Source: Enterococcus mundtii (GTDB taxonomy: Bacteria > Bacillota > Bacilli > Lactobacillales > Enterococcaceae). Taken from it: a stretch of DNA of 64,000 bases. The notes beneath the pieces are model-generated. The model had not been told where the DNA came from and did no database searches. It saw nothing but the letters and a program-made list of their open reading frames with translations. Where the stretch lies: the NCBI RefSeq assembly GCF_013394305.1, contig NZ_AP019810.1:2432001-2496000 (forward strand), written 5' to 3'. Of the stretch, positions 47,594 to 50,196 are shown piece by piece. Every line of letters starts with the position of its first letter. The stretch's first letter is position 1. A program made the translations under genes and the position numbers.

Positions 47594-47637
47594 ACCTTCA
47601 AAAACAGCCTGTTGACTGCTTTTGAAGGTCTTTTTTA
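47594..47637 (+). terminator. Rho-independent terminator between convergent genes
   Basis: GACCTTCAAAA-CAG / CTG-CTTTTGAAGGTC followed by T6, ending the lplJ transcript right at the end of the minus-strand gene. Confidence 0.88.
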
Positions 47638-49467
47638 ATTAGAGGGTATATTGATTTTTAGGCGATCGACCCACTTATCTTTTTCTTGGACCAAGGTGCT
47701 GCTGTATTTGTCGAGCGTGGTCTGAATCATCATCAAGTCATACTGTTCTTGTCGTATCAATTCTTCTGTCACATGTTTGGAAAAAATATTTTTCTCATAG
47801 TGTGTACTGTGCTCACAGTGGATCTGGATGTGAGAATTGATTTCTTGGATCGATAAATAGATTTCTCGATGCAAAGGATTTTCAATGGCTTGTGTTTCGC
47901 GAAACGAATGCTCTAAAATATGGATGAGTAATTGTGTGAAATCTTCATCATGGATCGGTAAAGAAGCTGGGATGTGGGTGTGAAAATCAACCTTGATATT
48001 CTTTTTAGCAGCGACTTCTTGATATCTAGCCAAAATCAAATTTGTTAGTTGGTGACCTGTCGGAAAAAGAGACAAATCCAATCGTCTTGTTTCGTCTACG
48101 ATCCGTTTTAAGTAAGTTTTCACTTCGGCTTGTTCATTTGTATCAATCAATTGACTCAGTTCTTCCATTTGTACAACAAAGTCATTTTTTGCTTGATCGA
48201 TTTGTTGGATCTGTGCTTGGATTTTTGCATAATGTGTTTCGATCAGATCTGTTTTAGTTTGTAAGAAAAGACGTTCTTTATGGTAACTATCGATTTTCAT
48301 GATATTCTCCATGATATTGTATCCGACAATAACAATCAGGAGAATCGCAAATAAGAGCGTGGACCAGTTGATGATCGAATGCCCAATCCCTAAGGCAGTT
48401 TGAATATAAAACATACAATGAAAGATAGCGATCAAAACGATCCAAGGACTACATACAGTGAAAAAACGATTTTGTTTATATGCTTCACCGATACTTGCTA
48501 TAGAAGTAACTAGAGTGCTTACAACACTAACAACACTAGCAAAGGGCATCAATTCAGGTAATTCAAAATCTGAAAATAATGCATAAAGTAAGATGTTGGC
48601 AAAAACAAATGTTTGGAAATAGCAGAAATAACCATACCATTTCTGATAGTTTGTCATTTTGGACTGATAGTAAAAAATAATCAGTATAGAAGTCAAGATT
48701 GCAAATAAGTGTGAAAAAATCGAATGTACGATTGGTTCAAAAAGAACACCACTCAAGATATCTTCCGAAATCGATTCAAATCCAAGCACGAAAGAAAATA
48801 GGCTCAAAATCAATAATGAACGATCTAATCTATTATGCCTGTAGAGAATATAGCTAGTCCAGATCAACAATCCGATGGCGATAACGAAAGCCAAGATCAT
48901 CGCGATGACTTGTGGGATCGATTGTGAAAAAATGAAGCTGATCATTGGACTGGTGGTCCCCAAATAAACTTTGGGTGTTAGACCAGCATAATTTTGATAA
49001 GGCGAGGAAACAACGATTTTCAACGTCTTGCCTACATAGGGTTCTGGTAGATCGATGATCGATAAAGACAATCCAGGATTGTTTCGTGCGCTTTCTTTGG
49101 AGCGACTGTAGAGTAGCGCGTCATCTAATGAGACACTTAACCATTGATGATTGCCTTTGATCAAGAGATTGGCATCCGCCAATTCTTTATGTAGAGTAGT
49201 TTCCATTATAAATGGTTCATTCTTGTCGATGGACGGCATGTAGTCGATATGGTTACTGTCGAACTGAAAATAAGGATCGTGCTCGGAATAATAGACCCAT
49301 GAATCATCAATCTGAGACATTTGTTTATTGTCGATTGGCGTGAAGAGGTAATGAAAAAAATAAGCGATACTTATTATAAATAACGATGCAAATATAATAA
49401 GTACGCTCCATTTGATTTTCATAGAGAATGGTATAATTTTATTACGTCCGTTATTAAAAATAACCAT
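47635..49467 (-). CDS. 7TM sensor protein with degenerate AgrC-type kinase region
   Basis: 610 aa. One N-terminal transmembrane segment (about 17-41), an extracytoplasmic domain (about 42-180), seven hydrophobic segments (about 185-400), a coiled-coil stretch (about 405-470) and a C-terminal GHKL-like region. In AgrC-like kinases the acceptor is in RHD-Y; here the aligned stretch reads AKNDFVVQ, with Asn for His. The N-box Asn is also lost (LLIHILEHS) and no glycine-rich ATP lid is seen. It is therefore probably a pseudokinase receptor. No response regulator is adjacent. ATG 49467 is used, eight bases after AAAGGAG; a TTG at 49473 is too close. Confidence 0.75.
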   Translation of the reverse strand: MVIFNNGRNKIIPFSMKIKWSVLIIFASLFIISIAYFFHYLFTPIDNKQMSQIDDSWVYYSEHDPYFQFDSNHIDYMPSIDKNEPFIMETTLHKELADANLLIKGNHQWLSVSLDDALLYSRSKESARNNPGLSLSIIDLPEPYVGKTLKIVVSSPYQNYAGLTPKVYLGTTSPMISFIFSQSIPQVIAMILAFVIAIGLLIWTSYILYRHNRLDRSLLILSLFSFVLGFESISEDILSGVLFEPIVHSIFSHLFAILTSILIIFYYQSKMTNYQKWYGYFCYFQTFVFANILLYALFSDFELPELMPFASVVSVVSTLVTSIASIGEAYKQNRFFTVCSPWIVLIAIFHCMFYIQTALGIGHSIINWSTLLFAILLIVIVGYNIMENIMKIDSYHKERLFLQTKTDLIETHYAKIQAQIQQIDQAKNDFVVQMEELSQLIDTNEQAEVKTYLKRIVDETRRLDLSLFPTGHQLTNLILARYQEVAAKKNIKVDFHTHIPASLPIHDEDFTQLLIHILEHSFRETQAIENPLHREIYLSIQEINSHIQIHCEHSTHYEKNIFSKHVTEELIRQEQYDLMMIQTTLDKYSSTLVQEKDKWVDRLKINIPSN

Positions 49468-49605
49468 AGACAAATCTCCTTTAATAAATTATCTAATTCC
49501 AGAGTAAACTTTTTTCATTTAACAGTCAATTTTTAGCTATTTTTATCGTTTTTTTTGTTTGCTTGTTTATTTTTTTATAGAGAATCTTCAAACTGAGTAT
49601 TAATA

Positions 49606-49634
49606 TTGTCAAAAAAATTTCGTTATTATATTAT
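49606..49634 (+). promoter_or_regulatory. Promoter of the SipW-like gene
   Basis: TTGTCA (49606-49611), 17-nt spacer, TATTAT (49629-49634), 35 bases before the GTG start. The 200-bp divergent intergenic region also serves the opposite sensor gene. Confidence 0.7.
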
Positions 49635-49668
49635 AGATTTAATAAAATGTTTCTTAAGGAGGTTCAAT

Positions 49669-50196
49669 GTGCCTATCTATAAAAAAATAACTTTTTTCAG
49701 TTCGATTTCGTTAGTGGTTCTTCTAGCAATCATTTTGTGTGTCGTGCTGCTCCCTCGAGTATTTGGGCTGACACCGCATATCATTGATGACCAAGCGATG
49801 GCATCGTCTTATGCAGAAGGAAGTCTGATCTATGTACAGAAAAGAAAGACAGATACGATTTTAGTTGGAGATGTGATCACCTACTATGAAAATTCAGGTA
49901 AACATATCGTGACAAGAAGGGTCGTTGCTATTGAAGATCAACACCAGTATTTTTACACGAAAGCTGATGGAAAAACGCAAATCGAAGTTGAAGCAGTACG
50001 AGATCGTAATATTATTGGCACGCCTATATTCAAGATCCCGTACATAGGGTTATTGTTCTCACGGCATGCGTTCAATTGGATGAAATGGGTATTCCTAGGA
50101 ATCGCTGTGTGCTTGTCCTCCATTACAGCTTGGCATACTTACCTTGAACTGAAACAACGTCGAGAGAAAGAAACTGATTTTTTTTCTGACATGTAA
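49669..50196 (+). CDS. SipW-like signal peptidase homologue lacking catalytic residues
   Basis: 175 aa with the SipW/ER-type signal peptidase layout: N-terminal transmembrane segment (about 8-28), a beta domain, and a second C-terminal helix (about 138-158). Where catalytic Ser-Met-Glu-Pro is expected the sequence has Ala43-Met44-Ala-Ser, followed by a normal EGSLIYV. Where the THR-type His would be it has VTRRVV (Arg83). TKADGKT and NIIGTPIF keep the fold. I infer a catalytically inactive homologue. GTG start 49669 lies six bases after AAGGAGG; a longer frame from 49606 overlaps the promoter. It is divergent from the pseudokinase gene. Confidence 0.78.
   Translation: MPIYKKITFFSSISLVVLLAIILCVVLLPRVFGLTPHIIDDQAMASSYAEGSLIYVQKRKTDTILVGDVITYYENSGKHIVTRRVVAIEDQHQYFYTKADGKTQIEVEAVRDRNIIGTPIFKIPYIGLLFSRHAFNWMKWVFLGIAVCLSSITAWHTYLELKQRREKETDFFSDM

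Follow-up and report, generated by a model that had tools for sequence, protein, structure and literature searches.

Why would a bacterium keep, side by side, a membrane receptor resembling a sensor kinase and a membrane protein resembling a signal peptidase, when each lacks key residues of its enzyme family? The question is raised by two divergently transcribed genes, here called K and S, in a 64,000-nucleotide stretch of the Enterococcus mundtii genome (assembly GCF_013394305.1, contig NZ_AP019810.1, positions 2,432,001 to 2,496,000, forward strand), hereafter the window. A preliminary description, made from the sequence alone, had noted an adjacent, divergent pair with key residues missing in both proteins, an observation that comparison with related genomes confirms in a stronger form than was claimed. 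K and S point to a hitherto undescribed non-enzymatic membrane unit in many enterococci. SipA already exemplifies a dead signal peptidase and RetS a degenerate sensor kinase, while a conserved pair of both was not found described, and among the matches listed from the open-access literature no paper described the K-S pair or such a dead S26B protein.

Conservation of the K-S pair

The window genome (G000, 3.30 Mb) contains one match each for K and S at E <= 0.001, and the two genes lie head to head with 201 bases between them, their start codons being picked from ribosome-binding sites and orthologs. The same 106 Enterococcaceae genomes were searched for both proteins, counting S matches at E <= 2.1e-21 (the next weaker, at 1.9e-18, is an ordinary paralog in g13, one of the numbered genera) and K matches only when they reached the N-terminal half. 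K was found in 51 genomes and S in 52, with 50 containing both, two S only (G030 and G036), one K only (G051, at a contig end) and 53 neither. In all 50 genomes with both, spanning six genera, the genes are adjacent and divergent, and the side-by-side arrangement is thus conserved among relatives. Within the window's genus, K and S were matched in 16/16 genomes and are adjacent and divergent in all 16; the K gene is damaged in three of these, being broken (G012), split (G005) or interrupted by one stop (G010). The head-to-head arrangement is seen in 37 of 40 fetched regions, the exceptions being G051, G030 and G036; the last two, both from g3, have no trace of K, and their S stops short of the C-terminal transmembrane helix. 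All 11 named records, including E. mundtii (K 96% identical), E. lactis, E. durans, E. villorum, E. thailandicus and E. ratti, carry K and S side by side. Across the order (396 genomes, the best three candidates scored in each), the kinase tail alone was matched outside Enterococcaceae, and full-length K was not seen there. A weak N-terminal K match in G061 proved a false lead, a 182-residue open reading frame (ORF) flanked by two other secreted-type ORFs.

Loss of catalytic residues

S passes the curated cutoffs of TIGR02228 (56.8 against 51.85 bits) and PF10502 (24.8 against 22.9 bits), and falls short of the SipW equivalog model NF046067 (46.9 against 190 bits). The earlier label SipW-like is better replaced by S26B pseudo-signal-peptidase. 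Judged by alignment, S is an S26B (SipW/Sec11-type) non-peptidase homolog, not a signal peptidase. Residues were counted in 49 of the 52 genomes with S: the catalytic Ser is lost in 48/49 and the catalytic His in 48/49, with Arg83 replacing the His in 48 and Glu106 present in 46, while ordinary paralogs keep Ser, His and Asp in 11/11. The nucleophile position varies among A, K, D, G, E, Q, N, T and H, and the g11 homolog still has both Ser and His.

For K, 28 copies were compared (10 from g1, 10 from g4, six from g5 and one each from g9 and g11), omitting the truncated L100, the broken L143 and L144, and 17 g3 orthologs that lack the DHp stretch and retain the ectodomain and seven-helix membrane domain. 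The reference comprised 10 of the 11 AgrC-like kinases found (L151, left out, reads like the rest), and 10/10 have the phospho-His, the two Asn of the N-box and the CEN Asn. The phospho-His is gone in 27 of 28 K copies and is Asn430 in the window, residue numbers following P0001, counted from TTG 49473. It is kept only in K of E. durans L098, which has His at the phospho-acceptor position despite a lost N-box. In the window K, the N-box N-x-x-D-N has become H518-x-x-E521-H522, CEN has become C553-E-H555, and the glycine box is lost. The first N-box position (518) is His in 26/28 copies and Asn in those of g9 and g11; position 522 is His in 20/20 copies from g1 and g4 and Tyr in 6/6 from g5; and position 555 is again His in all 20 from g1 and g4. 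A complete N-box is found only in g9 L116, which retains all three Asn, and g11 L123 keeps the first. This change from Asn to His at three ATP-site positions in two genera looks orderly more than random. Phosphorylation should be beyond the kinase-like tail. When their sequences are aligned with those of active relatives, K and S of the window show no catalytic residues; structural comparison was at the level of the fold. As a separate observation, H518, H522 and H555 of the g1 and g4 proteins lie beside a conserved C553 (window 47809-47922, K residues 518-555), a possible metal site.

Architecture of K

K has 610 residues, compared with 424-475 for related AgrC-like ORFs; its stop codon lies at 47635-47637, and its ORF reaches upstream to TTG 49473. 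In the AlphaFold model, one transmembrane helix is followed by a beta-rich ectodomain, predicted to lie on the extracytoplasmic side, seven transmembrane helices and a GHKL kinase-like tail. The tail has a predicted GHKL/CA fold of the PF14501 type, and in a fold-level comparison its best matches among solved folds are to Staphylococcus aureus AgrC. The window K had no usable match in Pfam or NCBIfam, K and its family profile gave nothing useful against the sequences of solved structures, and no Pfam match to 7TMR-DISM appeared at E <= 1 in the window K or seven orthologs. Compared with AgrC/FsrC-type GHKL kinases (PF14501), K has lost the active-site residues, and its ectodomain and seven-helix domain are not those of AgrC; AgrC-type transmembrane sensors are not known to have a large ectodomain. 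The earlier identification of K as an AgrC-like receptor is therefore retained for the pseudokinase tail and finds no support as regards the peptide-pheromone receptor type.

A Foldseek comparison aligned K with human WLS (8tzs) over 477 columns at E 3.1e-5; because the TM-score (TMq) is 0.26 and the root mean square deviation 15.6, homology is not established by this match. Among the best 50 rows no ectodomain relative except WLS was singled out, an absence that is not itself evidence. WLS and other GOST proteins have a beta-sandwich on seven transmembrane helices, a layout that K may share, but none is known to carry a kinase tail. The family is described as possible escorts for membrane-associated cargo (PMC9711517, in the part consulted).

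Coordinates of K, S and the intervening region in the window
Feature	Position	Strand	Basis
K, membrane receptor with AgrC-like GHKL pseudokinase tail	47635..49467	-	ORF, orthologs, model, fold matches
K ectodomain, model residues about 42-171, nine beta strands	48955..49344	-	AlphaFold model, mean pLDDT 72.4
K seven-helix membrane domain, model residues about 172-395	48283..48954	-	AlphaFold model
K coiled coil and DHp-like helices, Asn430 at phospho-His position	48061..48282	-	Model, alignment
K GHKL (CA) pseudo-ATPase domain	47638..48060	-	Alignment, fold match
Divergent intergenic region	49468..49668	.	Sequence between K and S
Candidate K promoter, TTGACT-17-TACTCT	49529-49524, 49506-49501	-	Read by eye
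Candidate S promoter, TTGTCA / TATTAT	49606-49611 / 49629-49634	+	Sequence
S, S26B signal-peptidase-like pseudoenzyme, 175 residues, transmembrane helix - domain - transmembrane helix	49669..50196	+	Profiles, alignment
S residue 43, Ala at catalytic Ser position	49795..49797	+	Alignment
S residue 83, Arg at catalytic His position	49915..49917	+	Alignment
S residue 106, Glu at catalytic Asp position	49984..49986	+	Alignment

Selection and order of events

Nei-Gojobori ratios of nonsynonymous to synonymous substitution (dN/dS), calculated for K and S only, are 0.03-0.21 across five close pairs for the ectodomain, seven-helix domain and tail of K; for S they are 0.07-0.14 across seven pairs, one with saturated dS. 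K and S are under purifying selection, and the dead domains are not merely drifting; in the window's genus, the K tail combines this selection with new invariant residues. In a tree of 47 S sequences and 11 paralogs, the paralogs separate and the branching order is g11, g9, g3, then g1 with g4+g5, although some forks are not starred (93/79, 93/80, 93/78). A tree of 45 K copies, built from the N-terminal 400 residues with no outgroup, separates g9+g11 from all other copies and orders g3, g1 and g4+g5 as in the S tree.

The trees give a hint of a pairing that predates the active-site losses, which would have come stepwise. Since the g11 S keeps Ser and His and the g9 K keeps its Asn/Asp/Asn, pairing first and losses later is the simplest reading, with the caveats that g9 and g11 are represented by one genome each and that the g11 branch is very long and drew a tool warning. 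The result is a graded series, from the g11 S with Ser and His and the g9 K with its N-box to the other copies examined, which have lost these, and the K-S family could serve for testing the conversion of a receptor and an enzyme into a non-enzymatic machine. Distance-matrix co-evolution was rejected as a sign of a K-S link: the distances correlate at r 0.88, but with a third gene held constant the partial correlation (0.64-0.81, depending on the control gene) does not clearly exceed that of controls.

Proposed function and alternatives

The preliminary description had proposed a non-catalytic sensing or scaffolding unit. As a maintained gene pair, such a unit is well supported, while contact between K and S, peptide binding, a ligand and an output are inferred. 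With a probability of roughly 0.4, we propose a membrane complex of K and S that has no catalytic role: S would keep hold of an exported peptide and leave it uncut, and K would sense or scaffold that peptide and signal by contact. The complex would be sited on the outer side of the cytoplasmic membrane, where S, an S26B family member that lacks the nucleophile and its catalytic partners, could bind an exported peptide in extended form, or the end of a signal peptide, without cleavage. K would take up or read the S-bound ligand via its beta ectodomain and seven-helix bundle, and any relay of the state by its tail would run through protein contact and differ between lineages. Because g3 lost the DHp stretch and kept the pair, the family-wide function may reside in S and the outer and membrane parts of K, with the tail as a lineage-specific output.

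A partial precedent for S is Streptococcus pyogenes SipA, a signal-peptidase homolog without the catalytic Ser and Lys, described as having a conserved peptide cleft and being needed for pilus polymerisation (PMC4049620, in the part consulted). Like S, SipA lacks the catalytic Ser and the general base, and it is still required for a surface process; unlike S, it has lost a Ser-Lys dyad and is encoded alongside a class-B sortase in a pilus cluster, whereas S has K as its partner and belongs to S26B, the Ser-His-Asp type. Bacillus subtilis SipW is of the same S26B family as S, which scores under the SipW model cutoff; unlike S, SipW keeps an active site and is located with tapA/tasA. SipW is reported to act in surface biofilms independently of peptidase activity (PMC5817204, in an excerpt citing Terra 2012).

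Several points weigh against this proposal. The model of S is poor (mean predicted local distance difference test, pLDDT, 57.8), and its peptide cleft is therefore not established; in the consulted part of the SipA study, no binding to pilin peptides was seen in vitro, and peptide holding was proposed, not demonstrated (PMC4049620). K-S co-evolution is not specific, the control partial correlations being 0.67 for lplA-omt and 0.59 for lplA-S. Because lplA lies near the pair in 31/41 regions (five genera), the adjacency of K and S is partly inherited synteny. Finally, since K is broken and S intact in G012, S is able to outlive K at least briefly. At this locus (L143, about 3200-4490), in a close relative of the window genome, K contains several stops and S is 98% identical.

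Pseudomonas RetS has an ectodomain, seven transmembrane helices and a kinase core, and is thus laid out like K, also a degenerate kinase. If K worked similarly, its tail would bind and repress or tune a genuine kinase (e.g. an AgrC-like one), with S as an extracytoplasmic co-sensor, which we regard as possible if somewhat unlikely. In the part of the source consulted, RetS regulates another kinase through contact, at least as part of its action, and retains its H-box (PMC5992135), whereas K has no H-box (the phospho-His being lost in 27/28) and no 7TMR-DISM match, and RetS also has receiver domains. In addition, 17 g3 orthologs keep the pair without the DHp stretch expected for such heterodimers, and no kinase was recognised among gene families recurring beside the pair in at least three genera. 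An envelope assembly chaperone, in which S and the K ectodomain and membrane domain escort a secreted client and the kinase tail is a relic or anchor, is unlikely, though catalytically dead SipA is described as essential for pilus polymerisation (PMC4049620, in part), the g3 tail degenerates while the ectodomain and seven helices persist, and one g3 locus (L142) adjoins a pilin-like gene. No client gene recurs: in at least four genera there are only lplA (five), omt (four) and the usual lplA neighbours, and the K tail of the window's genus is under purifying selection with new invariant residues.

A more elaborate scenario, decidedly unlikely, would make K a WLS/GOST-like cargo handler derived from or fused to an AgrC-like kinase, its ATP site now a His-rich and possibly metal-binding pocket (H518, H522, C553, H555), and S a former signal peptidase delivering uncut signal-peptide-bearing or lipid-linked clients, two enzymes having died stepwise as partners to give one escort or sensing machine. 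That K and S are merely dead enzymes being lost, their adjacency inherited synteny, is very improbable: the damaged K genes of G012, G005 and G010, the truncated, K-less S of G036 and G030 and the frequent proximity of lplA fit decay, but dN/dS is well under 1 in every segment, both genes are matched in all 16 same-genus genomes, and the pair is kept in changed neighbourhoods. Scarcely credible is an S that still cleaves by a changed mechanism under the regulation of K; the near-invariant Arg83 and Glu106 at old catalytic sites and the g11 homolog with Ser and His would suit it, whereas the nucleophile position is free to vary.

Neighbouring genes

The neighbour on the K side varies among at least seven kinds, including lplA and genes for prolyl-tRNA synthetase, PMT-like, PfkB, OmpR-type regulator, pilin-like and DinB proteins (each kind other than lplA Pfam-checked in one locus), and omt lies near the pair in 19/41 regions (four genera). 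Among ORFs of at least 60 residues in the 41 regions, no third partner was found, those recurring in at least four genera being only lplA, omt and the usual lplA neighbours, plus an antisense ORF of lplA. An ORF of about 478 residues beside K in g4 and g5 was considered as a partner and rejected, being prolyl-tRNA synthetase. This gene adjoins K, co-oriented, in L106-L115 and L117-L122, standing between K and lplA when lplA is in the region; one copy was Pfam-checked, and the rest were called by similarity or size. In L142 (5401-7038), the gene adjoining K in one g3 genome is pilin-like (GramPos_pilinD1, SpaA). Pfam identified no pilin or sortase gene in the 11 window ORFs around the pair, and none was recognised among recurring neighbours in the 41 regions. 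Likewise, no agrBD-type pheromone or response-regulator gene was found in the 11 window ORFs (Pfam) or recognised as recurring in the 41 regions, a survey whose minimum ORF length places small peptides outside its scope.

Intergenic region and other loci in the window

The promoters of K and S (table) are mere candidates, because a scan of 47380-50350 gave 15 sites against 11.8 in shuffles (standard deviation 3.6), no excess, and also a further minus-strand site at 49657-49630. Upstream of S, GTTATTATAT at 49622-49631 is invariant in 11 same-genus sequences and was not found upstream of S in other genera within the stretches examined; the genome contains the extended pattern GTTATTATATNAT three times and the reversed control once. 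A shared regulatory box was consequently rejected, and these letters are read as promoter sequence.

Elsewhere in the window, a large protein encoded at 16357-18576 contains Peptidase_M60, fn3 and CBM_5_12 modules, suggesting by its families a glycan-directed surface protease, and positions 39154-43486 hold a dlt-type (teichoic acid D-alanylation) cluster with an AMP-binding enzyme, an MBOAT protein and DltD.
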